Origin: a virus
Direction: 5' to 3' (one strand)
Length of the DNA stretch: 38,168 nucleotides
IMG/VR virus record: IMGVR_UViG_3300021091_000182
Location: 1 to 38,168 of that record
In this document: positions 1-19,500 of the stretch, one piece after another
Layout of the letters: each line of letters starts with the position of its first letter
How positions within the stretch are numbered: position 1 is the first letter of the stretch
Position numbers and translations under genes: made by a program
The notes under the pieces: generated by a model
Told to the model about the DNA's origin: nothing
Seen by the model: the letters and a program-made list of their open reading frames with translations, nothing else
The model's database searches: none

Positions 1-3000
1 GTACCAACGTTAAGAGTACCATCAGTAAATGCTAACTGTTTTAAACCACCATTACTAGCATCTGTACCAATACCAGATGGTCTAATAGTCAGTAATGTTA
101 CACGCTCTCCTTCATCTTCTAAGGTTCTATCAACTAGAGAAGATCTAAAATTAGAAGATATTCTTGCTGCCAAACTTAAACCTGATCCGTAAGCAGAAGG
201 AGCTGGTACAGCGTTGATGGAATCTGTTATAGTTTCTACTCTAGTTGTAGTACCAGATTTGCCAGTAATATCAATTGAATATGTACCAGATAATCTATCT
301 GGTCTTAGAGTGCCAGATTCTAAGTTTGAAGCATCAAGATAGAATACACCTTGCTTACCATCAAGTAAGTCAGAATCTAATCCTGATTCTGGACCAGTTT
401 TTAAAGTAACTGCTCCATCAGGACCATATGTATATTGTGATTTCTGGAATCTAGCAACACCAACTGTACCAAAAGGATCTAATGATGTTGTTTGATTTGT
501 AACTCTCTTGACATCCATTTCGATGCTAGAGAAGTATGTTTGCTGAGTTGAAGCAAGAACAGTAAGTTTAGCGCCAGTTCCTAATCCTAAAGCACCTGGA
601 ATGGGATCGATATCAAAATCTTCTGTATATCCATTACCACCATCAGTTATAAGGGCATTAGTAATTAAACCATTTTGAACAGTAAATGTTGCTTTAGCAC
701 CAGAACCTGTATTTGAACCGAATAGTTCTACGTTATTGAACGTACCAGTTGAGAATGGAACTCCAAACTGAACTTCTTTGTTTACTATATTAGCAGTATT
801 ATTTGCTGATAAAGTAATTGTTCCCGAAGTTCCACTATCAAGCTGAATGCTGGTGATAATAGCATTGGTAGCAACTCCCTCAGCAGTTACCTTTTGCCCA
901 ATAACAGCTTTGGTAACGTCAACTACGCTAATTGTATTTTCTCCTATATTACCATTGGTAATAGTTGAAGTGTAATAGTTACCTGGACTTTCTATAAAGA
1001 TGCCAGCAGCATATGCTCCTTTGGTAAAGTTAGAATCAAATTGTAATGCAGTTTCTGTTCTTATAATGGTAAATACTGTACCAACAGGGACATCATTAAT
1101 TAGCGTAGAACTTAATACAACTCTAGTATTACCACCAACAGTTAATATTTCAAGAACAATTGTATCTGCTGACACACCATTACCAATAACTCTCTGTCCA
1201 GTTTGTATTAAACTCGTTAATGGAATAGTGATGTAGTTTACTGGCGGGATTAAAGGATCACCACTTCCAGGTGAGAATAGAACAGTTTTTACTAAGAATT
1301 TAGATTCTGGTAATTTAACACCTTGTACAACTGGTTTAAATGATTGATCGCCCCTTAAGAATGTAAACGAGTTTGCTGAACCAGTATTAGGTAATGCTAA
1401 TCTAGAAGTAGAAATAGTACCAGTAGTAATAGAAGCAGCATCAATAGAAGCTGATGTCAGTGGAACCCAGTTAAATTCATTTGATCCTGATGTATTAACA
1501 ACTCTAGATATGTTTACTGTGACAGGAGTAGCATTATGACTATTAATATTGTCAACATCAGTAAATTTAACAGAATTTTCAATATTAATAGAAACTCTAC
1601 TTTCAACAAAAGATGTTAATTGAGCTCTTTCCCCGACGTAAACATAGAAACATGTACCACCATCTGCTGGTTGAGGAATGCCAGATTGACCAGAGAAAGC
1701 AGATGTTCCTGAAGTTCCCTCTGTTGTTACTTTATAAAGATTTGTTCCAACAAAAATTAAATCATCGACAAGATATGTTTGATTTGCTGACCAAGCAACT
1801 TCTCCTATAGAAATAGATACAGTTGGTGTGGTATCATATCCACTTCCTTTATTGGTAATTTCAACTGCCGAAATTCTACTACCAACAACAACAGGAGTTG
1901 CTGTTGCTTGAACACCATCACCTTGATTCGGAGCAGAGATAACTACAGATGGAGTTTCATTTAAATAAACATTACCACCGCCAGAAACTGAAATTGAGAA
2001 TACAGTACCATATAAAGTACTAGTTACTGAACCAATAGCACCTGTTGCCGAACCAATAACTAATGATCCAGTTGTAAATGTTGTGGATATATTTGGAGGA
2101 TAAGCTAAAAATTGAGTATCTACATCATTATTTAAAATATATGAAACTGTACCAGTAGCGATTTGAACTTCTGTATTGCCAGATCCAGCGTCAGTAATTG
2201 TTATAGGAATTTCGTCAATAACATTTTCTGGAGATGCTGCTAACTGAACAAAATTATTTGGAAGAACAATAAGATAATAAGACTCTCCAGCAACTATAGG
2301 ACCATCAGTTGTTTGAATTGGGTTAACTGGACTTGATACAATTGAAAGAATTTGACCGCTAGAGAATCCAGTTTTAGGAGTAAAGATTTTATTATTTGCT
2401 ACATCAACATCAGAAGCACTGATAGTATCATTCAATCTTGTAACTTGTACAGCAATATCACCAGAATTTAATCCTTCTAAAGCAAGTCTTTGGGAAGTGT
2501 TTTCTACTGTATAAACTTTAAATGGTCTGATAGGTGGAATTTGATCTAGATTAATCTTACCATCATTTCCTAGTTCTACAAGAGCATTTGGAACTGGATT
2601 TGTTGAATATGGTTTACCAAAATATGGACCTAGGTTATTAGTTACAAAGTCTCTAACAGCTTTCTGTGTTGGTAGTTTTTGGTTTGTAGCAGCAGCACCA
2701 CCTAATGTTGGCGAAGCATCAAATCCAGTAACAACAAGATCACCACCACGAATACGTAAGAATTCAATTTCCGAGATAGATACTTGACCAGTAAAGTAAA
2801 TGTTACCAGTTCTGTTTTCCATCTTCACGGTACGACCTACCTTGAAGTCACCTGCCTCATCAGTACCAGAAGCATATACTCTACCGTAACTTTGTGATAC
2901 TTGCTCGTTATCTTCAATCTTCTGTCCACCATTTTCTGGTAGAGCATAGTAATTAATACCAGAACCAATATATTCAAACGAATGACCAGAAGAGTTAATG

Positions 3001-6000
3001 ATAGATGGTCTGAATAATCTAATTGTTTTATTAATTAATTCTGAAGTGTTGAGATTGACTATCTGACCAGATTCTTTATTTTTTATTAAAAGAGCATCAT
3101 TTAACTCAATTCTAGAACTAACTTCTCCAGTTCCACCAACTGTTGTTTGAGATACTACAGTTATAAAAAATTCAATGTCTGATACGACATTTTCATATCC
3201 ATCAATTTTAACAACAAAGTTTTCTTGTGGTCTTCTTCCTAATCCATCTACACGGAATATTGTTTTACCAGCGCCCGTAACACCAATTTCGCTAATGGTA
3301 GCAATATCAAATACATATGGTTCTTCTCTATATCCAGTAGCACGTAGAGCATATGTACCAAAGTTTGAAGCAGAGTTGGTAACAGAAGCATATCCACCAG
3401 ATTCGGCAAGAATACCATCTTGGCAGAAGATACAGAATACAGATACCAACTGAGTGTAACCATCATTCTTAACTAAGTATCCAGTGCCTCCCTGTGAAAT
3501 AATAGTGAAGGCGTTAGCAACCATCGATTTACCTTGTGGGGCAAGCTTTGATGATCCATCTTCTTTCAAACCTGGACGAGGAACGTTAATTTGTTTAATC
3601 TTAGAACCATCAACTTCACAACCACCACCACCTAAGAATGAAATAATCGAACAGTTTTGAATATATGGAGAAGTTTCAATAATGTCATTGGCATTAATCA
3701 TTCTACCACGAATTACTGGTCTGTTACCAGCATCAATCATTGTACCAGAACCTTGTACAATTGTTGGGTTGTAAAGAGTTCCTCGATTTCTAACAACTAA
3801 AGCAACGTTATCATTAGTAGCCTCTGGTAAATCTCCACCATTTAGCACAGCATCTAAGATGGCAAATAGATTAATTAATGTAGTAATAATATTGGCACAT
3901 TCTGGATAGGATGTGTCTTCTGTAATGAATTCATCCGTAGACGCTCTTTGTAAACCTTGGAAATAATCACCAGCAAAAATACCAGGGAAGTTTGCTGGGA
4001 AGTATTTACGAGGATTGTATTGAGTGCCATAAGTAGCTGCTGGTAATGGAGCTCCAGATTGAGCTAAAGTACTATCAAGAATACTCCATAAAGTTTCTAT
4101 GGTGCTTTGTACTGAAGCACATGACGTTGGATCTGTATTGTCATTAGTAAGAGGATCTGGGAGAATAGATAAATCAGTAAATGGATCTTCGTCTGTATAT
4201 TCTCCTGGATCAGGTAAATTATTTGTAACTGCTAATTTAACTAGATTTTTAGCGTACTCATAAGCATATCTACTCTTTTGTAGTTCATCCTGAATAAAAG
4301 TAACAGCGCCAGTATTTGTTAAATAAGATTGAGTTGCTTGAATTGTAGCAGAGTTGCCTCCAGTAATTAAATCTTTAATCCAAGCGGTCATAATTAATTG
4401 AGTGTCTCTCAAACATTTTGCTTCATTTGGAATTGTTACAAGAGGATACTCCTCGTTAGCAGCACCTACTGCTTCCTCAGCGATATATTTAAAGTTTCTA
4501 GCAATAAGTCTAGCAGCATCAATTTTAGTTCCTCCAGAATCATTTGTGATGATGTCAACAAACTGCTGGAATAAAGATTCTATTGATGCTTCCACGAAAG
4601 CACACTGTGGATATCCAGCAGGATCTGGTAATATATCATTGTTTACGACATAATCTGCTGTGGCAAATTGTTTAGTATACGTTGTAGTAGCACTAGTCTT
4701 CCAATTTCTCATAGCAAGGACTGCTAGATCTTTTACCTTTTCAAAAGTTTCTATACTTTGAACTAGTTGATTACCAATATAGTCAAGGTGACCAGAAGCA
4801 TTTCTATATAATTCGGCAGCTTTAATAGTTTCTGAGTTGCCGCCATATCTTAAATCAAAAATGAGAGCATCTAATACATAACCAATATCTCTTTGGCATG
4901 TAGCATTATCATACTGAGAAACAAGATTAGCTAATGAAGTTGAAGGATTAAGTGTGGTTAGATATGGATAGATATTTTCAATGTATCCAACTGCTTCCTG
5001 CTTAATAAATGTCTTATTAGCAGTGATGTTATTAGCAGCATCAAACCATGGAGCACCTACTTCACTAAATGAGAAGAATAGTTTTGCTGTTGTTGTTGAA
5101 GCATTTGCTGGGAAAGCAGCAGCTGTCAATGACTTAGAGTTACCTAAAGTTATTGTATTGCTTCCTCTATTAATTCCAATTACATAAGCATATGAATCTG
5201 GGGTAAGATCAGTGTATCTAAACTCATTAGCAGATACTCTCATTCCAAGAACAACGCCATTTGTGTTAGGAACTGTTACTACATTATTTCCGCTTACTGT
5301 CGTACAGTCTCTAATTTCAAAATTCCAATTTCTTGTGGCAGCAATTGCCATATGCTTGGCATAATCGTAAATGTGTAAAGTCTTACCTAATTGATCGCCA
5401 ACAAAACCTACATCTAAAGTTGCTCCAGTTAAATAAGAATCTGCTGAACGAACAATACCAACAGTACCACCAAGAATTATATCACGTTGTACGGAGCGAA
5501 GGATAATTCTTAAATCTCTCTTACATTTAGTAATGTTTGGAATTGAAACACCAGGGAAAGAAACTTCTCCTGATGCTAATGCTTCGTTAATAATAAAGTT
5601 TTCATTAATAGCAATTTGATTAGCTGTATCTAGATTTGAATTTTCAGCATCACCAGTTAAAATATTAATGATTAAATCAAATCTATTTGTAATAGCAGTG
5701 GCAACATTCTGGCAATAAGGAGTTTCAGTATCAATAATTAAGAACTCATCTCTTACATAATCAAGATCTGTATACTCCTTCTGATAATATTGTTTTCCTG
5801 GGAATTCAATCCAATTTCTCATAGCAAGGATACATAGATCTCTTGCTTTTCTGAAAGCGGCAACAGATTGAATTAGTTGATTATCGATTAATTTGATGTT
5901 ACCGTTTTGCTCCTTGTATAAATTGGCATAGTTAATACTATTTGCGTTGCTATCATTTAAAGTTATATCATTAATGACAGCATCAATAAGAAGCTTAATA

Positions 6001-9000
6001 TCTCTCTTACACTTAATTTCGTTAAATGAATATGTTCCTCTATTTACAGTTATTCCAGATAAAGAATCTAAATCACCATCATTAATAGTTGTAGTAATAA
6101 TAGAAACTAAAGTAGTAATTCCTGAAGCAACATCAGAGCAGACAAATTTATCAAAGTTTGTTAATCTTTCTGGATCAGCAGTAATTGATAAATCACGATA
6201 GTTCAATTGGTTTCTTATGGCAAGAATCATGAGATCTCTTGCTTTATTAAAAGCAAAAATAGATGCTGCTTCTTCATCAACCAGACCATTTGAAATTGGT
6301 TGCCCTTCTTGGAAATAAGATCTAGCAGCAGTTACTGATCTCCAGTTACTACCGTCAGCAACGTCTTTTGCTACAGCATCAACAATGATACCAATGTCTC
6401 TACGACATTTTGTTTCACCAATTCCAAACACTCCTTGTGTTTCTGGGAAAGCATCTAATCCAGTTAAAGATCCAGCAGTAATGACATCAGTAATAATCTT
6501 ACTTAACGATGCGATTCCTGCTTGAACATCAACACATGCTGCAGCAGTTCCTGAAGGCAGATTTGGGATATTGCCACCACTTCCGTTATATTGGGCTGGT
6601 CCTGCAGTAATAGTTAAATCCTTAATTGTTAATTGATTAGTTACTGCTTTCCTCATCATATCACGAGCCATGTTGAATGCTGTGATAGATTGAGTTTCTT
6701 CGTTTACTAATCCATTTGAAAGAGGACTTGAAACATTTGTGAAATATTGATTTACAAATTCTCTTGAATATTTGTTACCTTTAGTAAATACATCTAAAGA
6801 AACTGCTTCTACAAACTTCTTAACATCACGCTTACACTTAATTTCTCCAACTAAAACATCGTAAGTAGCAGCAGCAAGGAAAGAACTTTTGGTTGTTCCT
6901 AAGTTTCCAGCAGTAATTCTGGTTGTTACAAGTGTCGTTAGAGTTGTAATTGCTGTTTGAACATCAGCACACGAAGAAGGATTGGCATTGCTTCCTGTTA
7001 CAGGATCTGCTGTAATTGTGAGGTCTTTGTAATAAAGTTGATTGGTGATCGCTTGATTAATTACATCTCTTGCTTTGTTAAAAGCAACTACAGATTGTGC
7101 TTCCTCATTTTGTAATCCATTACTAATCCAAGAAGAACCATCGGGAGTGAAATAACGTGATAAGAATGTTCTCGTATTGAAATCGGTTAATTGACGTAAA
7201 TCAGCTTCAATAGCAATAACAAATTGCCCAATATCTCTCTTACACTTTGTTTCTCCCTTGAGTGTAACTGGTTCTACTTCTGCTGGAAGACCAGTTAAAT
7301 TACCTGCGGTAATTCTTGCTGTAATCAATGAAGATAAAGTATCAATAGTAGATCTTACGTTAGTACAGGAGTTAGGATTTGTATTTGATACAGCTCCAGA
7401 TCCAGGTGCTGGGTCTGGAGTAATTGTAAGATCTTTAGCGAACAACTGGTTAGTAATCGCATTCTTCATCATGTCACGAGCCATGTTAAAAGCAACTACA
7501 GATTGAGCTGTTTCGTCTACAAGACCATTGGAAATAGGAATACCATTATTAAAATATTGTAGTACAAATTTACGTGAATATTTGTTTGATTTTAAAGTTA
7601 AATCTAGAGATACAGAATCAACAAAGTATGCTAAATCTCTCTTACACTTTGCTTCCCCAGCAGGAATCGTTCCTGTTGTTTCAGATGGTAAACCAATTAT
7701 ATTACCAGCAGTAATTCTATCTGTGACAATAAGTGCTAAGCTAGTAATAGCTGCTTGAACGTTAGCACAGGAGTCGGGATTTGTATTCGATACAGTTCCA
7801 GATCCAGGTGTTGGATCTGCGGTAATAGTAAGATCTTTAACTGTTAACTGGTTAGCAACAGCCCTATTCATCTCGTCTCTTGCTTTATTAAAAGCAACAT
7901 TTGATTCCGCTTCTTCTCCTAGAAGACCATTGGAAATAGGAATACCATTATTAAAATATTGTAGTACAAATTTACGAGTATATGTATTACCACCACCATT
8001 AGAAATATCCAAAGATAAAGCATCGACGAAAATACCAATATCTCTCTGGCATTTTTGTGGATTTGGATTTACAAATTCTGGATTGAATATTAAAATAGCA
8101 GCATAAGCATTTGCTATAATTTCATCTCGATTTAATTGAATTAAACGATAAGCATCTTTAAATCTAGATGTAGGAGTTGTTTGAGCATCTCCAGGATAAT
8201 AGAAATCTGGGAATTGTATAGCAATTTCAGCAGCAGCACGGTCAATAATTTGCTGCCTATTCTGCTGAATTAAACGATACGAATCTCTAAATCTTGAAGA
8301 AGATGTAGTTTGAGGATCGCCAGGATAATAGAAATCTGGATACTCCACAGCAATCTGAGCAGCAGCACGATCAATAATTTCTTGCTTGTTATTATAAATT
8401 AAATCCGCCGAATCTTCGTAACGGTTATTGTTGCCATCATTTTCTTTTACTAGATTATTGATGTTTAATGATGTTAGTACGTCAGTTACAACAGCAACTA
8501 ATGATGTGATAGCAGATTGAACATCAGCACAAGCGCCAACATTATCATTTGGAATGTTTCCACCACCTCCACCATAAGTAGCAGCACCAGGAGTGATGGT
8601 TAAATCTTTAACTGTTAATTGATTAGCAATAGCTTGCTTCATCAAATCTCTAGCAGCATTGAATGCTGTTATTGACTGAGGAACTTCTCCTTCCAAACCA
8701 TCTGGAATAAATGTGTTGCCATTGAAATATGTTAGAACAAACTTTCTGGCATAGGTGTTGCCACCAACAAATACATCAAGTGATACGTAATCAACTAACA
8801 AACCAATGTCACGCTTACACTTAGATTCTAGATCAGTTGGAGCTGGGGATGGAAGACCATTTGCTTCCATAGTAGCATAAGCAGTATCAATAATTTCCTG
8901 TTTGTTTAATTGGATTAATCGATAAGCATCTTTAAATCTTGATCTCTTTGTAGTTTGAGCATCGGCAGGGAAATAAAAATCTGGATGTTGTACAGCAACT

Positions 9001-12000
9001 TCTGCTGAAGAACGATCAACAATTTCTTTGATATTTTGAGTAATTAAACGGTATCCATCAGCAAATCTACTGAATTCGTCAGTAACTGAATTTCCAGGGA
9101 AAACGAAGTCTGGAAATTCTACAGCAATCTGAGCAAGTGCTTTGTCAGTAATTTCGTTTTTGTTTTTGAGAATAAGGTTAGAAGCGTCCTTATATCTCAT
9201 CGACTCATCAAGATATACATCAGGATGAATAGTAACACTATCCATCTCACTTTCTAATGATTTACTTAGATATAAAATTTTATTTTCTACATCAATAGAA
9301 GTAATGTATGTATTATCTTGAATAGCGTCACCGCTAGTTACTAATTGCCCTACCTTTACTTTTGCAGTATTAGTTATTTGAATAAAAGATGGATAAGCAT
9401 CAGCGTTTGAAGTATCAATAACTGTTTTGGTAAAAGTTGGTAATGGATAAGCAAATCCATCATATGTCTCTTTTAACCAACCATTAACTTCCTCAGCAAT
9501 AAAATCTTTATTAAATTCTATCTGATTTGTAGCGTCAAAGTAACGATCATCCGTATTGTTTACTACAATATCATCAATTAAAGTAAATAAGTTTGTTAAT
9601 GTAACAGCAACGTTAGTACATTCTGGAAATTCTGGATAGTTGGTAGTTCTTGGAACTAAATCATCTGTCCAAATTGGTGTAAATGATGTTTCACCTTCAC
9701 TAAGTTTTAAATTAATATTTCTTGTTTTAAAGCCTGTTATTTCACCATCAGCAAAAGTGTGATCTGCTCCAGAAAGACCTGTATTAAATTTCCAGATTCT
9801 TATTTGAGTTGGAGATACAACTTCTTTAATGAAGTAATCTGTTTCTACTTGTTGTTCTAGATTATTATAAGAATATAATCTCATTTTGGGAACAAGACCA
9901 ATTGTTCCTGCTGCTGAAACAACTTCAACAATATCACTATCTTTTTTAAACTTCAGACTAATTTTTGTTTGCCAATTTCTCATGGCAAGAATAGCATAAT
10001 CTCTTGCTAATTGGAAAGCAAAACGAGATTGTCTATGCTGGTTATCAATATATTCAACTGATTGAGTAGAATTATTTCTATATGATTTTGCCGCTTCGAT
10101 TGAAGTAGCGTTGCCACCATATGGGAGATCGGCAATAACAGCATTTAAAATATGTTTAAGATCTCTCTTACAAAGATTTTCTCCATCTGAAGCACCATCG
10201 TCAGAACTAACTGGTGGTAATCCAGTCAAATTGCCAGCACTAATAGCACTAGTTAAAATGGTTGTTAAAGTAGTAATAGCGGTTTTAACGTTAGCACAAT
10301 TATTTTCCCCAACAGTTAAGTATGTTGTTGGATCATGAGTTATTGAAAGATCTCTATATGCTTTTAACGGCGAATAAGTTGGAGTTATAGGCAATGAATT
10401 GTTAACAGCTAATTTTGCATATTCAGCAGCTTTGGTGAAAACAGCAATAGATTGAGGTTCAACACCAACAAGACCATTAGGAATTGGCACTCCAGTAATG
10501 GCATTAAAATAAGATCTGGTTACAACAATTGTACTCTTATTTGATCCGTCATATAAATCATTTGCCAGACCTCTTAAAAAGATCTTGACATCTCTACGGC
10601 ATTTACTTTTTAATGCTAAGTTTGCTGCTCCCCAAGTAGCAAAGTTTGATTCATTCCACAACCATCCAATAGCTTCATCGGCAATAAAATCTAAATTTTT
10701 GTAGATTAAATTTCTAGCATCTTTAAATCTTAATCTACTAGCATTTGTACCAGGATAGACAAAATCTGGATAACGAGAACTAATTGCTCCAGTAATTTCT
10801 TCAGCGATAAAATCTCTATTATTTCTAATAAATGTTACAGCATCTATAAATCTATATGATGTAAATGTAGAATCAGTAAATCCATATGGAGAGTTTAATA
10901 GCGAAATCTCGACATACTTTGTTTTTGCTTTTGCTTTACACTGTCCAATTGGTGGTAAATATACTGAGGTGTAACTTGGTTGAATTTGTTTCTTAACGAC
11001 AATTCTTCTAGAAAAACCGTCAGCATCATATAAAACTTGATCAACTCTTTGAAAACCAAAGAATGAATTTAAAGCAACTGGGGCATTATTTGGTTTTGAT
11101 ATAAAAACAATATCGAATTCTTTAAATTCATGAAGACCAGCAAATTTAAAAATTATACCACCACTACCAGGAGTTAATTGACCATTATCACCTGGCGTTG
11201 GGTGAGTAGACCATTTACTAGCATCAATTTCTTCTACAATGTATTCTCTTAATTCTGTCTCGCCATATTTTACAACTTCACCTTCTGCTCTAGTTGATTT
11301 AAATAATGCTACGTTAGCTAGATAAGTAACAGAATTTATTACGTATGAAATAACTTCATCATCAGCAAAAGACTGTGATGGAGAATTATCATTTACTGTA
11401 ATATTTAAAGATGCTTCTCTTCTATCACCCAAATAGATATATGCAGATGATCCGTTTACAGCATTTTTTGGTGTAGCTAATACACCACTATAAGCAATAG
11501 TTCCACTACTTCCTGAGGTGGTTACTTTATAAATTGAATTGCTTACTCTTACAATATCCCCAACTAAATATTCTTGCTCAGCTTCCCACACATAATCAGG
11601 AGCAGGAGTAGCAGAAATAATAGACGTTAAAGTTGCTGAACACGACGTTTGTTGCCCAACAATATTAGTTCCTGCTGTAATTAAAGCATTTAATTTAGCA
11701 ACGTCACCAGTATGTTCTTTAATGTTAAGAATGGCACTTTTTTGCCCGAACATTTTGTGACCGATTGGGAACCTTCTTCTGAAAGATTCTGTCCCATCAA
11801 TTCTAGTATCATTTCCACCAATCTCATCATCAAAGTAAAATCTTTGCTTATCATCAAATACAAAAGCAAAGTTATGAGTATATACTGGGTTACCTTCCGA
11901 ATCCAAAGCATCACGGAAGGTAAGACCATTCATATAGTTTTGGTTGGACGCCTTGAACATATGGCGCCCTGGATTTACTGGTCTAACGATTACTAAACGT

Positions 12001-12914
12001 AAGTTATCACCAATAACCGAACACAATGGTGGAATTGAAATTGGGTTATCTTCGTAATATTCGCCACCAGCAACAATTAAAGTTTCTCTACTTGGAGTAG
12101 CAGCTGCTAATTGAGCAGCTTTTTTGATTGTCCTAACTGGTTTGGCAGGAGATCTACCATTATTTGTATCACTACCAATTTCAGAAGAAACATAGATACG
12201 ACCACCTACGTCATTTGTGGCAACATTGTAAACAAATTCTGTGGTGGCAATTCTTCTACTTTGATCTTGTAGAGGAGGAGTAGCAGTTAACTCTGGATAA
12301 ACAGTTTGACCGTAAAAAGGTAGATTCGCATTTGTTAAATTTGTGTATGAACCTAGACGTGGAGCTCTAAGTAAAATACCAGGAGTTACAAAATTTTGTA
12401 CGTTTAAATTAGTAACCGTAGCACTATCGCTAACAATAGAAGCAGATGTTCTAATAGCACCAAGAACATCTAATTCAAAGTCAATAGTGTCTAATTCACA
12501 CGTACCCTGAGCGGTAACTCCACCTAAAGGAGCTTCTGCAAATACTATTGTTGGTGGTTGAGAATATCCTCTACCAGGATCTGTAATAATAACTGAAATA
12601 ATACTTCCAGTATCTGGATCTCTTACAGCACTTAGAACAGCTACTTTTGAATTTCGGCTAATAATATCTGGTTGTGATACTGTAATAGTTGGAGTAATTA
12701 AATATCCAACTCCAGGATTAGTAATATTTACTTTTGCTATCCTTTCGCCAGTCCTATTAAGACCTACTCTAGAAGCACCATTTTTTCTAACTACTCTAAT
12801 AATTTCCTTACTTTCAAGTCCTTCTCCCGAACTTATAGTTACGAAAGATTTACCGTTTATATTAAGCTCAGTTGATTCAATAATTTGCTTGTTAGGATTG
12901 AACTTTAAGCTCAT
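1..12914 (-). CDS. Giant tail-fibre-like virion protein with split beta-helix and large repeat array (partial, 3' end beyond window)
   Basis: The frame opened by the ATG at 12914 stays open to base 1, giving at least 4,304 codons; the C-terminus is outside the window. It starts MSLKFNPNKQI. Residues 1-235 are beta-rich with two G-x-GY modules. From about 236 comes a pectin-lyase-like beta-helix start (GRIYVSSEIGSDTNNGRS, then RTIKKA). About 390-3040 is an array of helical repeats, twelve with a C-x-R-D motif. Beta-helix-type sequence resumes at about 3040-3210 (SPYIQNCSIISFLGGGGCEV, SMVANAFTII). Around 3304-3370 are the marine T4-like fibre signatures INSSGHSFEYIGSG and RTGNIYFTGQVSI, and near the left edge LDSDLLDGKQGVFYLDASN. 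The role is inferred to be a long host-recognition fibre or its baseplate-proximal part. The start follows a terminator and a late-promoter box; only a weak GGGG lies about 12 bases upstream. Confident as a gene and virion protein, less so about which fibre. Confidence 0.87.
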   Translation of the reverse strand, partial: MSLKFNPNKQIIESTELNINGKSFVTISSGEGLESKEIIRVVRKNGASRVGLNRTGERIAKVNITNPGVGYLITPTITVSQPDIISRNSKVAVLSAVRDPDTGSIISVIITDPGRGYSQPPTIVFAEAPLGGVTAQGTCELDTIDFELDVLGAIRTSASIVSDSATVTNLNVQNFVTPGILLRAPRLGSYTNLTNANLPFYGQTVYPELTATPPLQDQSRRIATTEFVYNVATNDVGGRIYVSSEIGSDTNNGRSPAKPVRTIKKAAQLAAATPSRETLIVAGGEYYEDNPISIPPLCSVIGDNLRLVIVRPVNPGRHMFKASNQNYMNGLTFRDALDSEGNPVYTHNFAFVFDDKQRFYFDDEIGGNDTRIDGTESFRRRFPIGHKMFGQKSAILNIKEHTGDVAKLNALITAGTNIVGQQTSCSATLTSIISATPAPDYVWEAEQEYLVGDIVRVSNSIYKVTTSGSSGTIAYSGVLATPKNAVNGSSAYIYLGDRREASLNITVNDNSPSQSFADDEVISYVINSVTYLANVALFKSTRAEGEVVKYGETELREYIVEEIDASKWSTHPTPGDNGQLTPGSGGIIFKFAGLHEFKEFDIVFISKPNNAPVALNSFFGFQRVDQVLYDADGFSRRIVVKKQIQPSYTSVYLPPIGQCKAKAKTKYVEISLLNSPYGFTDSTFTSYRFIDAVTFIRNNRDFIAEEITGAISSRYPDFVYPGTNASRLRFKDARNLIYKNLDFIADEAIGWLWNESNFATWGAANLALKSKCRRDVKIFLRGLANDLYDGSNKSTIVVTRSYFNAITGVPIPNGLVGVEPQSIAVFTKAAEYAKLAVNNSLPITPTYSPLKAYRDLSITHDPTTYLTVGENNCANVKTAITTLTTILTSAISAGNLTGLPPVSSDDGASDGENLCKRDLKHILNAVIADLPYGGNATSIEAAKSYRNNSTQSVEYIDNQHRQSRFAFQLARDYAILAMRNWQTKISLKFKKDSDIVEVVSAAGTIGLVPKMRLYSYNNLEQQVETDYFIKEVVSPTQIRIWKFNTGLSGADHTFADGEITGFKTRNINLKLSEGETSFTPIWTDDLVPRTTNYPEFPECTNVAVTLTNLFTLIDDIVVNNTDDRYFDATNQIEFNKDFIAEEVNGWLKETYDGFAYPLPTFTKTVIDTSNADAYPSFIQITNTAKVKVGQLVTSGDAIQDNTYITSIDVENKILYLSKSLESEMDSVTIHPDVYLDESMRYKDASNLILKNKNEITDKALAQIAVEFPDFVFPGNSVTDEFSRFADGYRLITQNIKEIVDRSSAEVAVQHPDFYFPADAQTTKRSRFKDAYRLIQLNKQEIIDTAYATMEANGLPSPAPTDLESKCKRDIGLLVDYVSLDVFVGGNTYARKFVLTYFNGNTFIPDGLEGEVPQSITAFNAARDLMKQAIANQLTVKDLTITPGAATYGGGGGNIPNDNVGACADVQSAITSLVAVVTDVLTSLNINNLVKENDGNNNRYEDSADLIYNNKQEIIDRAAAQIAVEYPDFYYPGDPQTTSSSRFRDSYRLIQQNRQQIIDRAAAEIAIQFPDFYYPGDAQTTPTSRFKDAYRLIQLNRDEIIANAYAAILIFNPEFVNPNPQKCQRDIGIFVDALSLDISNGGGNTYTRKFVLQYFNNGIPISNGLLGEEAESNVAFNKARDEMNRAVANQLTVKDLTITADPTPGSGTVSNTNPDSCANVQAAITSLALIVTDRITAGNIIGLPSETTGTIPAGEAKCKRDLAYFVDSVSLDLTLKSNKYSRKFVLQYFNNGIPISNGLVDETAQSVVAFNMARDMMKNAITNQLFAKDLTITPDPAPGSGAVSNTNPNSCTNVRSTIDTLSSLITARITAGNLTGLPAEVEPVTLKGETKCKRDIGQFVIAIEADLRQLTDFNTRTFLSRYFTPDGSSWISNGLQNEEAQSVVAFNKARDVINQAITNQLYYKDLTITADPVTGSNANPSSCADVQTAITTLTTLVTTRITAGNLGTTKSSFLAAATYDVLVGEIKCKRDVKKFVEAVSLDVFTKGNKYSREFVNQYFTNVSSPLSNGLVNEETQSITAFNMARDMMRKAVTNQLTIKDLTITAGPAQYNGSGGNIPNLPSGTAAACVDVQAGIASLSKIITDVITAGSLTGLDAFPETQGVFGIGETKCRRDIGIIVDAVAKDVADGSNWRSVTAARSYFQEGQPISNGLVDEEAASIFAFNKARDLMILAIRNQLNYRDLSITADPERLTNFDKFVCSDVASGITTLVSIITTTINDGDLDSLSGITVNRGTYSFNEIKCKRDIKLLIDAVINDITLNDSNANSINYANLYKEQNGNIKLIDNQLIQSVAAFRKARDLCILAMRNWIEFPGKQYYQKEYTDLDYVRDEFLIIDTETPYCQNVATAITNRFDLIINILTGDAENSNLDTANQIAINENFIINEALASGEVSFPGVSIPNITKCKRDLRIILRSVQRDIILGGTVGIVRSADSYLTGATLDVGFVGDQLGKTLHIYDYAKHMAIAATRNWNFEIRDCTTVSGNNVVTVPNTNGVVLGMRVSANEFRYTDLTPDSYAYVIGINRGSNTITLGNSKSLTAAAFPANASTTTAKLFFSFSEVGAPWFDAANNITANKTFIKQEAVGYIENIYPYLTTLNPSTSLANLVSQYDNATCQRDIGYVLDALIFDLRYGGNSETIKAAELYRNASGHLDYIGNQLVQSIETFEKVKDLAVLAMRNWKTSATTTYTKQFATADYVVNNDILPDPAGYPQCAFVEASIESLFQQFVDIITNDSGGTKIDAARLIARNFKYIAEEAVGAANEEYPLVTIPNEAKCLRDTQLIMTAWIKDLITGGNSATIQATQSYLTNTGAVTFIQDELQKSRYAYEYAKNLVKLAVTNNLPDPGEYTDEDPFTDLSILPDPLTNDNTDPTSCASVQSTIETLWSILDSTLAQSGAPLPAATYGTQYNPRKYFPANFPGIFAGDYFQGLQRASTDEFITEDTSYPECANIITTLINLFAILDAVLNGGDLPEATNDNVALVVRNRGTLYNPTIVQGSGTMIDAGNRPVIRGRMINANDIIETSPYIQNCSIISFLGGGGCEVDGSKIKQINVPRPGLKEDGSSKLAPQGKSMVANAFTIISQGGTGYLVKNDGYTQLVSVFCIFCQDGILAESGGYASVTNSASNFGTYALRATGYREEPYVFDIATISEIGVTGAGKTIFRVDGLGRRPQENFVVKIDGYENVVSDIEFFITVVSQTTVGGTGEVSSRIELNDALLIKNKESGQIVNLNTSELINKTIRLFRPSIINSSGHSFEYIGSGINYYALPENGGQKIEDNEQVSQSYGRVYASGTDEAGDFKVGRTVKMENRTGNIYFTGQVSISEIEFLRIRGGDLVVTGFDASPTLGGAAATNQKLPTQKAVRDFVTNNLGPYFGKPYSTNPVPNALVELGNDGKINLDQIPPIRPFKVYTVENTSQRLALEGLNSGDIAVQVTRLNDTISASDVDVANNKIFTPKTGFSSGQILSIVSSPVNPIQTTDGPIVAGESYYLIVLPNNFVQLAASPENVIDEIPITITDAGSGNTEVQIATGTVSYILNNDVDTQFLAYPPNISTTFTTGSLVIGSATGAIGSVTSTLYGTVFSISVSGGGNVYLNETPSVVISAPNQGDGVQATATPVVVGSRISAVEITNKGSGYDTTPTVSISIGEVAWSANQTYLVDDLIFVGTNLYKVTTEGTSGTSAFSGQSGIPQPADGGTCFYVYVGERAQLTSFVESRVSINIENSVKFTDVDNINSHNATPVTVNISRVVNTSGSNEFNWVPLTSASIDAASITTGTISTSRLALPNTGSANSFTFLRGDQSFKPVVQGVKLPESKFLVKTVLFSPGSGDPLIPPVNYITIPLTSLIQTGQRVIGNGVSADTIVLEILTVGGNTRVVLSSTLINDVPVGTVFTIIRTETALQFDSNFTKGAYAAGIFIESPGNYYTSTITNGNIGENTISVVDVTKAVIGQKVTAEGVATNAIITSIQLDSGTSGTITLSANNTANIVNKEVQFGVPFSTGTFNNVELFGSNTGSGAKATFTVQNGLITNALITDGGNGYTEDFDIDPIPGALGLGTGAKLTVLASTQQTYFSSIEMDVKRVTNQTTSLDPFGTVGVARFQKSQYTYGPDGAVTLKTGPESGLDSDLLDGKQGVFYLDASNLESGTLRPDRLSGTYSIDITGKSGTTTRVETITDSINAVPAPSAYGSGLSLAARISSNFRSSLVDRTLEDEGERVTLLTIRPSGIGTDASNGGLKQLAFTDGTLNVG
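3800..11750 (-). repeat. Array of ~120-135-residue two-cysteine helical repeats, with nested 43-residue repeats, inside the giant fibre gene
   Basis: Twelve in-frame C-x-R-D motifs (CKRD, CRRD, CQRD or CLRD) lie near 10595, 10165, 8815, 8050, 7645, 7245, 6830, 6400, 6010, 5525, 4890 and 4405. Most units have another cysteine some 30-50 residues earlier, in contexts such as SCADVQ, SCANVQ, ACVDVQ or PECTNV. Units typically end with an A-F-N-x-A-R-D-x-M helix, then N-Q-L and a D-L-T-I-T strand. Between some units lie shorter repeats of about 43 residues with a core like RFKDAYRLIQLNKQEIID, at about 8100-8440, 8870-9210 and 10640-10880. The unit spacing is most regular (402 bases) around 7230-8060. 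Unit edges are approximate because they were read by eye. Confidence 0.85.
7521..7976 (-). repeat. Pair of identical 54-base direct repeats, 402 bases apart
   Basis: Bases 7521-7574 and 7923-7976 are identical by eye over 54 bases. Flanking sequence also matches at the same 402-base (134-codon) offset, for example 7371 onward against 7773 onward with scattered differences. They lie in adjacent two-cysteine repeats of the giant fibre gene and point to a fairly recent in-frame duplication or conversion. Confidence 0.85.
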
Positions 12915-12946
12915 TTTTCAATAGCCCCGTATTTGCTGTTAAAAGT

Positions 12947-12968
12947 GAAAAACCTTTTATATAAAGGT
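12947..12968 (-). terminator. Rho-independent terminator after the 187-residue gene
   Basis: On the minus strand, ACCTTT (12968-12963), a five-base loop and AAAGGT (12957-12952) form a six-pair stem. Five T follow immediately (the last pair's T at 12952 counted), then C. It sits three bases past the stop codon of the 187-residue gene and about 40 bases before the giant fibre ATG. The stem is short and AU-rich but position and T-run fit a phage intrinsic terminator. Its 5' arm abuts a late-promoter-like element. Confidence 0.6.
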
Positions 12969-12975
12969 ATTTATG
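12968..12975 (-). promoter_or_regulatory. Late-promoter-like element CATAAATA upstream of the giant fibre gene
   Basis: The minus strand reads CATAAATA, one base from the T4 late promoter TATAAATA recognised by gp55-programmed polymerase. It overlaps the stop codon of the 187-residue gene and lies about 54 bases before the ATG at 12914, close to the spacing seen upstream of gp8. By T4 spacing, transcription would start near 12962, in the loop of the adjacent hairpin. AT-rich 8-mers do occur by chance; the intergenic position is the main support. Confidence 0.5.
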
Positions 12976-13534
12976 TTAAAAATGTTGATGAGATGATTTG
13001 TAGATAACACATCCACAAAACTTGCTGATTAGCAGTTCCTGGATTACCAGTAGCAGTAAATGATAAAAATCTATTTTGTATATATGGTACTACAGACCAA
13101 ATAAATCCTGTTGGAAAATCTTCGGCAAAAGATGTTTCAATATCACTAATTTGTGTAATAGTATTATTAGTACATAAAACAGACAGATCATAATTTAAAG
13201 ATAGTCTGTAAGAACTATCGGAAGCATTTGTAGCAACAATACTACTTTTTATTATGTTCAACGAGTTATTGGGAAGTTGTGGATAAACACCTAATGTCTG
13301 TGTATAATCACCCAATGTAAAAGTTTGAGTAGCCTGATTAAAAGTAGTTCTAGCAACTAAAATATAATCATTTTTTTGGGACAGGTCACCCAAAAAAGTA
13401 TGATTTTGATTAAGCGTCGTTAAGTTTTTTAGTTCAATATTATGACCAGAAGCTACTTCTATAAAAGAAGTTACTACACCATCATTATCTTCTACACTGA
13501 ATCCTTTACCAGCAATAAAATTTTGCTTAGACAT
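12971..13534 (-). CDS. 187-residue protein between the two giant fibre genes, function unknown
   Basis: I do not recognise this protein. It starts MSKQNFIAGKGFSVED two bases after the stop of the 3,756-residue fibre, so it is very likely co-transcribed and perhaps translationally coupled; the upstream bases are A-rich with no clear Shine-Dalgarno. No signal peptide or membrane segment is visible and it looks mostly beta-stranded. The C-terminus (NRFLSFTATGNPGTANQQ, then aromatic and hydrophobic residues) resembles a small globular beta domain. A segment with ILVART and YTQTLGV resembles IVARTVNYTQTLGI near residue 3265 of the neighbouring fibre, hinting at a shared module. A terminator follows directly. 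A connector, fibre tip or accessory structural protein is a guess from position only. Confidence 0.8.
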   Translation of the reverse strand: MSKQNFIAGKGFSVEDNDGVVTSFIEVASGHNIELKNLTTLNQNHTFLGDLSQKNDYILVARTTFNQATQTFTLGDYTQTLGVYPQLPNNSLNIIKSSIVATNASDSSYRLSLNYDLSVLCTNNTITQISDIETSFAEDFPTGFIWSVVPYIQNRFLSFTATGNPGTANQQVLWMCYLQIISSTFLT

Positions 13535-13536
13535 TA

Positions 13537-16500
13537 TTATTTTTTAATTAAAGTACTTGTGAATTTTGATGTAAATTCAACATTAGGATCATCATATCCA
13601 GGGATTTTATTTACTGTAATATTTAGCACACCATTTATTACGCCTAATGAATATTCAACTAATTTTTGTCCAGTAAATACATCACTACTTTCGGAGAAAT
13701 AAACATTATTGGAATCATCTACAACAAATGTAAGCTCTGTTATTTCATATTCCGAAGCGGCAGAAGAAGTTTGTACTAATACTTTACCAGATCTATAAAT
13801 GTTAGTATCACATGTACCAATAATAATGTCTTGAGTAAATGATACCCCAGAAATACCTTTAATTGTAAAATCATCTAGATTTACAAATTTGCCTGTGTTA
13901 TCTACAAACGTTTCAAATGTTCCCTGATCATCATAATCTATTTCAATAGCAGCAGTTCCTGATCCTTGATTTGAGAATCTAATAAAATCAGTTCCATTAA
14001 TATTTAAAGTTAGAGTATCTTTGTTTGTTGAAATAATAGGAGCATTATTAAAATTGATATTTAAAATGTCATTATTTAATGATAGATTTGTATTTCTTAG
14101 TTCTAAAATTTCTGGATCAACACCACTAGATTTTTTAACAGTTAGCAAATTACCAGATGATACTGTTGAAGTTAATTCAAGAACATCGCCTTGTAATTCT
14201 AACTTGCTCACACCAGCAGATTCACTGAATACTAAATCATATTTTTTGCTGGCATTGAATATTGTAGAAATAGTTCTTACTGTATCAAATTCTAATTTTG
14301 AAATAGATAATCTAGTAGAATTTACAGAATTATTATAGAAATAGAAGATGTTTTCATTTGCTGCTGGAGCAGATTCGGCAATTAAATAAGTATTACCATC
14401 AACATCTCTTACTCCACCTACAGATCCCCATTGGTTTCCATCATAACCTTCAAATCCCCACTGTTCGGTATTGAATCTAATTAATCCCCTAACAGCTTCT
14501 GTTGTTGGTCTTTGAGCGAAATTACCAACAGGAACTCTTAATCCAGTAGTAGTATCAATTTGTACAATACCATTTGTTGATGGTTTGATATTAATACCAG
14601 ATCCAGAAACATCAGTAACTGAGAAAGTTATAGTATAACCACCAATATTACCAGTTAATGAATCATTTATTAAATAACCAAATCCACCACTTACAAAAGC
14701 AATATTTTCTGGTAGAATATTTTGGCTTTCAACCAATACAGAAATTACAGCACCAGATCCAGATCCGCCAGATAATACTATGTTGGAATAAGAACCATTA
14801 CTAATTAAAGGAACATCAGGATCAAAAGTACTTAATCTACAGATAACACCAAAAGATTTTGTATTATAAGAAATATTTTGAATTAGTTGATTTCCAGAAA
14901 GAATTAATCCATTTCTAGTAACTATATTTCTTGAAGTTAAATCTCCTATGGTTGTTAAACTGCCTGTAGGAATATCAATTCCTAATGTCTGAGTATAATT
15001 AACAGTTCTAGCTACGATAGCATTTGAACCAGTTAACTGACCATTAAATACAAAATCGTTTGTTGAGTTACTTACATCAAAATTAAGATCACCACTATTT
15101 GATTTAATAGCATTAGTAGTAAATTCTAAGTTGTTGACGGTTAATTTATCGGTTAATGAATTATGATATACAGCACCACCATCAACATATAAATCGCCTT
15201 GAACTTCTAGACCTACATTAGTAGTCCAATAATTGCTAGAAGCATTCCAAGTAATAGTCTTATCTTGAGTCGCGTGTAGTGTAATACCACCACCATTAGC
15301 AGCAGGATCTGATGGTGTATCTATGGCACCTAATTCAATATTTTTATCATCAATAGAAATTGTGGATGAGTTTACGGTAGTTGTAACTCCGTCTACAATT
15401 AAATTACCTCTAATCTGTACATCACCGCTATTATTTCCTACTACTCCAGGATCGATGACAATTAAAGTATTTGAGGAAGTAATTTCATTTGATACAATTC
15501 TAATTTCTTCAATTACCACACCACCATTACCATTCGCTGTAATGGTAATATCTCCATTAATAACTTGTGTATTTGTAATGGTACTGCCGTTGATATTGAT
15601 ATCATCAATTTGAACTTCGCCAACTACAGTAAGTATAGATAAATCAGAAACTGTACCAAAGTTAACATTATTTACAGTTTCTACTACACCAGTGCCGTTA
15701 GGAGTTAACGTAATATTACCATCGGCGTTTGTCGAGCTAATTACATTACCATCTAATCTTAAATTATCAGCATTGACTTCACCAACTACAGTTAAGGTAG
15801 AAGTGATATCTACATCTTTACTTGTAGTTGTTTTACCACTTCCATTAGGTGTTAATACAATATCAGCATTTCCATCTATTGAAGATAAAATATTTCCAGT
15901 GATTTTTAAAGTTTCTACAATAACACCTGTTGTGTCGATAGAAGAAATAGTGCTAGTGTCAATTCTAATATTATCAGCATTAAACTGTCCAACTATTGTC
16001 AAAGTAGAATTGTCTGCTACTGTACCAAAATTAACGTCATTTACAGTTTCTACTACACCAAATCCATTAGGAGTTAAAGTGATATTACCATCAGTATTTG
16101 TGGAGCTAATTACATTGCCATCAACACGAATATTATCAATATTAAATTGACCAACTACATTTAACGTGTTCGTGATATTTACTTGTTTGGTAGTAACAAT
16201 TCTGCCAGTTCCATCTGGAGTAATATTGATATCTCCATTTGTAGCAACAGATGAAAGTGTATTGCCAGTAATCTGTAAAGTTTCTACAATAACACCTGTT
16301 GTGTCGATAGAAGAAATAGTGCTAGCATCAACACGAATATTATCAATATTAAATTGACCTAATACTGTTAATGTAGAAAGATCTTCTAATCTACCTATGT
16401 TTACATCATTTACAGTTTCTACTACACCTGTGCCATCAGGCGTTAAAGTAATATTACCATTAGTATTTGTGGAACTAATTACATTGCCATCAACACGAAT

Positions 16501-19500
16501 ATTGTCAATATTAAATTGACCTAATACTGTTAAGGTTGATAAATCAGTAGAAGTACCAAAATCAACATCATTAACTGTAGTAACTTTTCCAGCCCCATTT
16601 GGAGTTAATACAATACTAGCATTTGAACCGATTGAGGAAAGAACATTGCCCGTCACTTTTAATGTTTCTACAATAACACCTGTTGTGTCAATAGAAGAAA
16701 TAGTACTATCATCAATTCTTACGTTGTCAATATTAAACTGACCTTTTACTGTCAGCGTTGAAAAATCTGCTAATGTACCAAAGTTAACATCATTTACAGT
16801 TTCTACTACACCAGATCCATTAGGCGTTAAAGTAATATTGCCGTTAGTATTTGTAGAACTAATTACATTACCATCTAACCTTAAATTATCAGCATTGAGT
16901 TGCCCAACTACAGTTAATGTAGCAGTGATATCTACATCTTTACTAGTGACTGTCTTTCCTGCTCCATTAGGAGTGATAACAATATTAGAGTTTACAATGC
17001 TTGATCCTAATACATTATTTGTTATCGATAATGTTTCTAAAATAAGACCACCACTGTTTGTAGATGTTATTGTATTACCATTAATATTAATATTGTCAAT
17101 TTGTGTTTCACCAACAACAGTAAATGTTGATAAATCTCCAATAGTACCAAAGTTAACATCGTTAATAGTTTGTATTGTGCCAGCACCATTAGCCTCTAAA
17201 ATTATACTACCGTTGGTATTGGTAGCGATAATATTATTATTTTCTATTTTAATATTACCTGATTGGGTTTGCTCAACCGAAACACTTTCTAATGAAGTAG
17301 TTCCCAATACAGCAAGATTAGCATTTACTATAACATCTCCTGTTTCATCACCAACAACTTTTGGATCTAAAATTAAAGTTGTATTAGTTGGTGTTGAAAT
17401 AATATTATCTACTATTCTAATCTGTTCAATGTAAGCACCGCCAGTGCCATTACCAGTAATAATTAAATCAGCATTGTCGTTGGTTGTGCTAATTGTATTG
17501 CCATTAATGTTAATATTATCTACTTGTAAATCACCATTTACAGTTACTGTTACATCTAATGGTGTGGTTGTATTTCCAAAAGTTGTATTTTTATTGACTT
17601 GTGTTGGTGTTTGAATTGTAACTGTATGTGTTGGACCACCTTGAATAGTTAAATTTCCTGACGTAGATAAAGTAGAACCATTCAAACTGAATGTATCTAC
17701 TACTAACTCACCAACAATTGTAAGTTTAGACTCATTTCCACTAACACCAAAAAATACATCGCTTAATGTTTGTACAAAACCATCTCCACTAGGTGATAAT
17801 ACTAAGTTTCCATTGTAATCAGTAACACTAATTGTATTACCATCAATCCTAATATTATCTATATTAGTCTGACCAATTACTGTAAGTATAGCTTCGTCGG
17901 CAGGAACTTCTGTAAAAATATTAAATGGTCTACCTATGTTTACATCATTTACCGTTTCTACTACCCCCGTGCCATTAGGAGTTAAGGTAATATTTCCATT
18001 AGTATCACTAGAACTAATTACATTTCCGTCAATTCTAATATTATCTAAGTTAGTTTGACCAATTATAGTGAGTATAGATTCGTCTGATGCAATTCCAAAA
18101 TTGACATCATTAGTTGTAGTAACTTTTCCAATACCATTTGGTTTCAAAATTAAATCTGTATTTACTCTTGTGGTGCTCAATACGTTGCCATATAATCTAA
18201 TATAATCTGCTGTAAAAGTACCAGTTAAAATAACATCACCTATATTAGCAAATACAACTTCAGTAGAAGATAAAGGAGAACTTACATTTTGACTTAATGT
18301 TATAGTAGTTGCTGTTATAGAATCAACTGTAGTTCCTGATGCTATGTTTGTTGATAAGAAAGTAATAACATCTTGACCAGCAGAAATACCTACAGCACTA
18401 GTAACTGTAATTTTTAATGGATCATAGATAAAGAATGCTCCTGTTAAAGTTGTTCCCCAATTACTACCAGCAGTAATTTTTACATTAATAGAAGCAACGG
18501 TTAAAGTTAAATCATCTCCAGTTCCTCCAATATCAGATGCTGGTATGGTAATAGTTTCTGCTACAGCAAATCCAGCACCGCCATCAATAATTGTAACATT
18601 TGATGCTGCTCCATTTTCATCAATAGTAATAGAGAAAGAAGCAACAGTTCCCGCCAAAGATCCAGAAACTGGACCAACCGTATATGTTCCAGCAGTTCTG
18701 GTTGGATCAGCTGATGAAGTATTTACTGTGGCGATATATCCAGGAGTTATTGCTGTTACATCAGCATAAAAATTTCCAGCAAATGTTATTCTATGACCAA
18801 CAGCAACAGTACTAATAGTCGTTGCTAATAAGAAATCAGTTCCGACAGTTCCTGTAGAAGTTATAGTTTCACCGACACTATCTGCTGTTGTTGTGGCATT
18901 TAATATGCCAAAATTAGTTGTTCCTGTATTAGTTGTTGTACCAGTAAATAATGTTGTTCCAGCAACATTAATATTACCACCAATGAAAAGATCTTTTTCA
19001 ATACCAACGCCGCCAGCGATAACAAGTGCTCCTGTTGTGATACTCGTTGATTGTGTAGTAGCATTTATTCTGAATGTAGGAATAGTCGAACTCAACTCCA
19101 TTGATAAAGCACTAGCAGGATCCGTTGGAAGCGTTCTGCCAAGTGTTAATCTTGAAACACCACCTGTATGAAATTCTAAAGTATTATTTGCTTCTCCAGG
19201 ATTTTTTTCTGGAAGAATAAATGTCTGGTTGTCTACAGATCTTACGCCACCAAGAGAACCCCAAGCAGTTCCATTATACCCTTCAAAATAAGTTCCTGTG
19301 CTATTAAATCTAACCATACCAGCAATGCCAGTTGGTTGCTCTTCTGTTGATCCTAATGGTAATATAAACGCGTTTGTTCCAATAACTTCAACATATCCAT
19401 TTCCATTAGGAGCCAGTAAAATATTACCATCAGTATCTTCACTTGAAATTGTATTTACACTTAATCCTAAATTACCGACATAAGCTTTTTGACTAATATA

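Follow-up and report, generated by a model that had tools for sequence, protein, structure and literature searches.

Phycobiliproteins (the alpha and beta subunits of phycocyanin and phycoerythrin; Pfam PF00502) form alpha/beta heterodimers that assemble into the trimers and hexamers of the phycobilisome. The cysteine of their K-C-x-R-D-I-G motif holds the bilin, while the aspartate binds the pyrrole nitrogens and the arginine, often together with the preceding lysine, binds the propionates. A search of the open-access literature found no paper on phycobiliprotein-like or PF00502 domains in phages. Among described phage proteins, the closest to the one analysed here are members of the cyanophage tail-fibre families phrog_5342 and phrog_4527 (S-PM2 p088, P-HM2 tail fiber, Syn1_101), which belong to the same protein family and have the same beta-helix carrier and insert site; no description of the fold of this insert was found in open papers. 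A predicted right-handed beta-helix carrier is also shared with pectin-lyase-like and DUF1565 proteins and with the tail fibres of phage 7-7-1 (9rkv), in none of which, to our knowledge, is a phycobiliprotein-like insert known.

The DNA analysed here (the window), a virus record of 38,168 nucleotides, covers the tail region of a T4-like cyanophage; its gp8 shares 70% identity with that of Synechococcus phage Sf-FR1. A tail-fibre/baseplate-type gene (Table 1) matches the phrog_5342 profile over both carrier and repeats (2541 bits). The sequence-only reading described a single open frame of at least 4,304 codons in which about 7.9 kb, or about 2,600 residues, of helical repeats separate two beta-helix halves. 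The open frame was confirmed, and the near-identical contig L009 gives a full-length product of 5,704 aa (L009:902-18016). The large insert with a helical array also stands, but its size is corrected to 2,722 aa (8,166 bp), with a helical part of about 2,340 aa preceded by about 330 beta-rich residues. A complete copy of the gene is present in two viral contigs, L009 being one of them, and an assembly or chance artefact was ruled out, since independent contigs hold the same fibre gene.

Table 1. Features of the fibre gene in the window (nucleotide positions in the window; residues of its open reading frame)
Feature	Position	Strand	Remarks
Tail-fibre/baseplate-type protein ORF	3..12914	minus	4,304 codons, open at window edge, 3' end outside window; phrog_5342 tail fiber, E=0
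N half, predicted right-handed beta-helix	11847..12206	minus	residues 237-356, GGRIYVSSEIG...FVFDDK; DUF1565 PF07602
Insert separating the beta-helix halves	3681..11846	minus	residues 357-3078; 2,722 aa / 8,166 bp
Helical array, phycobiliprotein-like domains	~3825..10853	minus	residues ~688-3030, ~2,340 aa, 12 C-x-R-D domains
Domain 1, KCRRD, Cys772	10401..10799	minus	
Domain 2, LCKRD, Cys915	9972..10370	minus	
Domain 3, KCKRDIG, Cys1366	8619..9017	minus	
Tandem hairpin duplications, 129-bp (43-aa)	8137..8415	minus	RFxDAYRLI..N..EI..A....PDFYYPGD; helix pairs lacking the C-x-R-D helix
Domain 4, KCQRDIG, Cys1622	7851..8249	minus	
Domain 5, KCKRD, Cys1757	7446..7844	minus	
Domain 6, KCKRDIG, Cys1891	7044..7442	minus	
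Domain 7, KCKRD, Cys2027	6636..7034	minus	
Domain 8, KCRRDIG, Cys2170	6207..6605	minus	
Domain 9, KCKRD, Cys2302	5811..6209	minus	
Domain 10, KCKRD, Cys2464	5325..5723	minus	
Domain 11, TCQRDIGY, Cys2673	4698..5096	minus	top single match to phycocyanin alpha
Domain 12, KCLRD, Cys2834	4215..4613	minus	AF2-modelled as window 4044-4616
C half of beta-helix	3327..3680	minus	residues 3079-3196, IETSPYIQNCSIISF...YALRATGYR; homologues in cyanophages

A short CBM_5_12-like stretch, under the Pfam cut-off, lies among the beta-rich residues of the insert (window 11514-11588, residues 443-467). The N terminus of the fibre protein (residues 3-165) is weakly similar (28%, E 5e-12) to part of a neighbouring 2,703-aa ORF (window 26973-27452), and another neighbour, a 3,756-aa protein with baseplate-wedge similarity, carries tandem repeats of 369 bp (x3.5, window 15652-16951) and 162 bp (x1.9, window 22233-22540).

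Beta-helix carrier and its insert

The distance between the EDNP and SPYIQN motifs was used to compare the spacing of the two halves among relatives. It is only 67-69 aa, corresponding to an uninterrupted beta-helix, in S-SRM01, L100, L076, L123 and L141, and 699-1,588 aa with 2-5 domains in most marine relatives, whereas it reaches 2,794 aa in the window and 2,959 aa in L012. Across the window clade the gap is 2,596-2,959 aa and holds 11-13 domains; the corresponding insert in the described members of phrog_5342 and phrog_4527 is 700-1,600 aa long and has 2-5 domains. Both halves, that of the window's N-terminal side included, align end to end on the natural insert-free homologue L100. An AlphaFold2 (AF2) model of a piece of an uninterrupted homologue, standing in for the split window protein, folds into one compact beta structure (pLDDT 88.6, pTM 0.87), and a Foldseek search with this model retrieved pectin-lyase-like beta-helices and phage 7-7-1 tail fibres, with TM-scores of only 0.3-0.56. 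Judging from these alignments and the model, the predicted beta-helix of the window protein is split by an insert. The sequence-only reading had expected the halves to lie much closer together in relatives, and they are closer or contiguous in all but one; among homologues the insert may be missing altogether or extend to some 2,960 residues, and a single fold accommodates the two halves. Its picture of a single beta-helix interrupted by a large helical insert is thus borne out by the end-to-end alignment and the predicted fold of the insert-free homologue, while the homology of the repeats to phycobiliproteins, their restriction to cyanophages in the data searched and the link to CpeT had escaped it. 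As that reading suggested, the insert may serve as a second receptor-binding arm or as a spacer.

The domains are not tied to one position. In S-SCSM2R and DSL-LC03 they are placed in a different loop of the same beta-helix, and L100 has a single domain at a third site, in a loop further on, which is missing from the S-SRM01 orthologue (781 vs 619 aa). With three different loops occupied, the domains act like mobile modules, and even close relatives differ in how many they have: for two neighbouring window domains, the best match in L011 is one and the same domain, and likewise in L017. Giant arrays of 18-20 phycobiliprotein-like domains occur in L063 (L063:581-12574), G009 and G041 (5,104-aa ORF).

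Homology of the repeats to phycobiliproteins

The Pfam Phycobilisome family (PF00502) matches the whole window protein with an E-value of 3.8e-23 (82.6 bits versus a cut-off of 22.2), no single stretch being significant alone. It matches 21 of the 23 domain-related records, 12 of them above the curated cut-off, and single stretches exceed the cut-off in S-WAM2, S-CAM1 and S-RSM4. A single-sequence phmmer search against the PDB gave three matches at E<=10, all to phycobiliproteins, and with a profile built from 93 phage domains only, the best 50 distinct sequences among 177,635 PDB sequences were all phycobiliproteins (best E 4e-7). Comparison of the phage domain profile with phycocyanin alpha by hhalign resulted in a probability of 95.2 and an E-value of 2.5e-8, and the helix from the cysteine to Gly-Gly aligns without gaps to Cys84-Gly102 of phycocyanin. 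A profile in which C-x-R-D was masked, searched against ORFs of cyanobacterial loci, still ranked alpha-phycobiliproteins first (best E 0.013; shuffled controls reached 42 and the best unrelated ORF 920); four 'unlabelled' matches above that ORF are CpcA-like by sequence. A match due to the motif only was therefore ruled out by the masked profile and the shuffled controls.

The predicted structure is in agreement. The AF2 model of window positions 4044-4616, built on an alignment of 145 rows, all from phages (the window and viral contigs), had a pLDDT of 91.7 and a pTM of 0.82, and all 50 PDB matches listed by Foldseek were phycobiliprotein subunits with a probability of 1.00. The TM-scores against solved phycobiliproteins were moderate (0.47-0.64 by query length), so the detail of the pocket may differ. 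Among viral proteins, the significant Foldseek matches were mostly cyanophage tail proteins. The phage domains resemble phycobiliproteins in predicted fold, in the order of core helices, in the register of K-C-x-R-D-I-G and Gly-Gly, and in the tetrapyrrole-attachment cysteine. They differ in that structurally aligned residues are only 15-19% identical, the last two helices are separated by extra residues, and a bilin is predicted only. They are also fused head to tail in one chain up to about 20 times and are part of a virion protein; a role in the phycobilisome is not claimed. Altogether, sequence and predicted fold make us highly confident that these domains are homologous to phycobiliproteins, with K-C-x-R-D in register, and that they are inserted as modules whose number varies between related phages.

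A tblastn search with the array matched 375 records, all cyanophage or marine. No domains were found, even by profile search, in T4, HTVC008M, phiM7 or Desulfovibrio phage 7757, and their occurrence in all T4-like phages was rejected at the sensitivity used. In the data searched, phycobiliprotein-like domains were found only in cyanophages. The 6,619-aa protein S-SZBM1_208 was represented by 71 peptides in purified virions (PMC9146016), and by length and place it is the domain-bearing ORF of the S-SZBM1 genome. This domain-bearing protein is therefore a proven virion component in S-SZBM1, and membership in the same family suggests a virion location for products of window-type genes as well. 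The fold of the very large repeats in cyanophage virions, which annotations have listed as tail fibre or structural protein, can now be named, and proteins of host photosynthesis prove to be reused as parts of the virion.

Conserved cysteine, CpeT genes and the possible role of the arm

Among 570 unique phage domains collected with the motif-masked profile, the cysteine is present in 96.0%, the aspartate in 97.5% and the arginine in 85.4%; with loci fetched by the motif pattern left out, the values are 97.0%, 97.0% and 86.2%. C-x-R-D, located on helix E, is the best-conserved part of the phage domain, equalled only by the tyrosine of the next helix. In the window, the cysteines of C-x-R-D and of a second motif, C-x-x-V, alternate almost one to one, and the latter is conserved in 89-97% of the cases where it is present, so that a disulfide is possible. 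As a general reason for the conserved cysteine a disulfide was rejected, since 67 of the 516 domains with the motif cysteine, most of those listed coming from one giant array, contain no other cysteine within the 95 residues preceding it or the 134 following it; locally it is possible, the window usually having a partner cysteine. In L063, many domains have a single cysteine, located in C-x-R-D.

Genes of the CpeT family (PF06206, bilin lyases) were found in 17 of the 23 domain-related records. Among 24 named complete cyanophage genomes, 18 contain both the domains and CpeT, two the domains only, none CpeT only, and four neither (Fisher p 0.0014, to be taken only as a guide because the genomes are related and were partly chosen via the domains). 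PF06206 was not found in DSL-LC03 and B23, which have the domains, and neither the domains nor CpeT was found in NC_006883 (P-SSM2), GU071098, NC_031922 and MW015081. Named phages without the domains include S-SSM7, S-CAM9 and P-SSM2. In 12 records (S-RSM4, S-WAM2, ACG-2014j, S-CAM4, S-PM2, S-H9-2, S-RIM32, S-CAM1, Syn1, G005, G006 and G001), and likewise in G016 and G022, CpeT is located about 1-4 kb upstream of the domain-bearing fibre gene, and in S-WAM1, S-SZBM1, P-HM2 and S-SCSM2R it is present away from it. In the window clade, a CpeT-like gene starts about 0.3 kb past the fibre gene (L009:18322-18765), and a downstream copy was also found in G001, G033 and G034. This neighbour resembles phage CpeT, a T-type lyase, through its PF06206 match, and it weakly matches the solved proteins 5hi8, an antenna protein, and CpcT 4o4o (E 0.0024 and 0.025). 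L182, the genome near-identical to the window, has a second domain-bearing fibre gene (3677-14659, 3,660 aa), which is closely preceded by a CpeT-like gene of its own (2222-2674). Bilin-synthesis genes are present in only two of the 23 domain-related records, which leaves them unsupported as partners of the domains; the pigment would therefore normally be that of the host.

We consider the best reading, with a probability of roughly 0.5, to be a modular arm made of captured phycobiliprotein domains and probably carrying bilin. Domains of host phycobiliprotein origin, arrayed in tandem, would form a long arm projecting from the beta-helix of a T4-like cyanophage fibre or baseplate, and in the pigment-rich host the conserved cysteine could take up a bilin as a thioether during assembly, helped by a phage CpeT-type lyase or by host lyases. 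Because the pigment-attachment site is kept, these viruses may carry bilin on the virion, and a pigmented arm formed in this way seems plausible, at a little under even odds. The main rival, for which we see a substantial but lesser chance, is a colourless structural arm, in which the captured fold would persist as a rigid helical unit that duplicates readily, with the motif cysteine in a disulfide or in core packing. The alternation of the two cysteine motifs in the window together with the strong conservation of the C-x-x-V cysteine, the rarity of bilin-synthesis genes in these phages and the free variation in domain number all agree with it. Nevertheless, the domains with no other cysteine in reach, the giant array of L063 among them, retain C-x-R-D. 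The arginine and aspartate, which are of use to a chromophore but not to a disulfide, are retained too, and CpeT lyase genes accompany the domains, often as neighbours.

We regard it as very unlikely that the domains are adhesive, forming a receptor-binding or mimicry arm directed, for instance, at the host surface or at released phycobilisome parts; how many domains it contains would then determine its reach or avidity. The location in a fibre, the pectin-lyase-like carrier, the CBM_5_12-like stretch and the variable length fit such an arm, but phycobilisomes are intracellular and the best-conserved positions are the motif residues instead of a variable surface. Convergence, in which helical repeats came to resemble phycobiliproteins by chance, could be suggested by the low overall identity and by single-domain Pfam scores below the cut-off in the window; it is extremely improbable given the agreement of three independent tests (profile versus PDB, hhalign and Foldseek), the gapless register from the cysteine to Gly-Gly, the masked-profile control and the occurrence of the domains in cyanophages only. 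The novelty here lies in the kind of insert found in a phage fibre; if a pigment were proven, the arm would be new as a category. Coloured cyanophage virions are not known to us, and a bound bilin would, as far as we know, represent a new class of chromoprotein in the virion. As an alternative to a response to light, the benefit of the pigment could be fold stability or photoprotection.

A class of cyanophages with light-dependent adsorption has been described (PMC7238727), and P-HM2 fails to adsorb in darkness (PMC7112961). The genome of P-HM2 contains domains with an intact C-A-R-D, CpeT and a bilin reductase. S-PM2 is reportedly another light-dependent adsorber. Any connection between the domains and such adsorption is speculative, being a correlation in very few phages that the state of the host could explain. 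It is unlikely that the fibre becomes light-responsive through the pigment and that this underlies the behaviour, and we have still lower expectations of the combined proposal that a CpeT-type lyase encoded by the phage loads the virion domains with bilin and that the arm, thus pigmented, works as a light sensor or switch in adsorption. If true, it would offer one answer both to why phages encode CpeT and to why some adsorb only in the light. The role of phage CpeT has been called unresolved (PMC3037559), and this protein now gains a candidate substrate in the product of the adjoining fibre gene. Two questions become testable, namely the substrate of CpeT (PMC3037559) and the light-only adsorption of some cyanophages (PMC7112961, PMC7238727). 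These findings bear only slightly on the puzzle of phage pebS and pcyA (PMC3037559), because P-SSM2, described with phage bilin reductase genes (PMC2984593), has neither the domains nor CpeT. Profile-matching domains in L041, L054, L098 and L113 carry LEQN, LELH or LKSD in place of C-x-R-D and form a natural contrast set.
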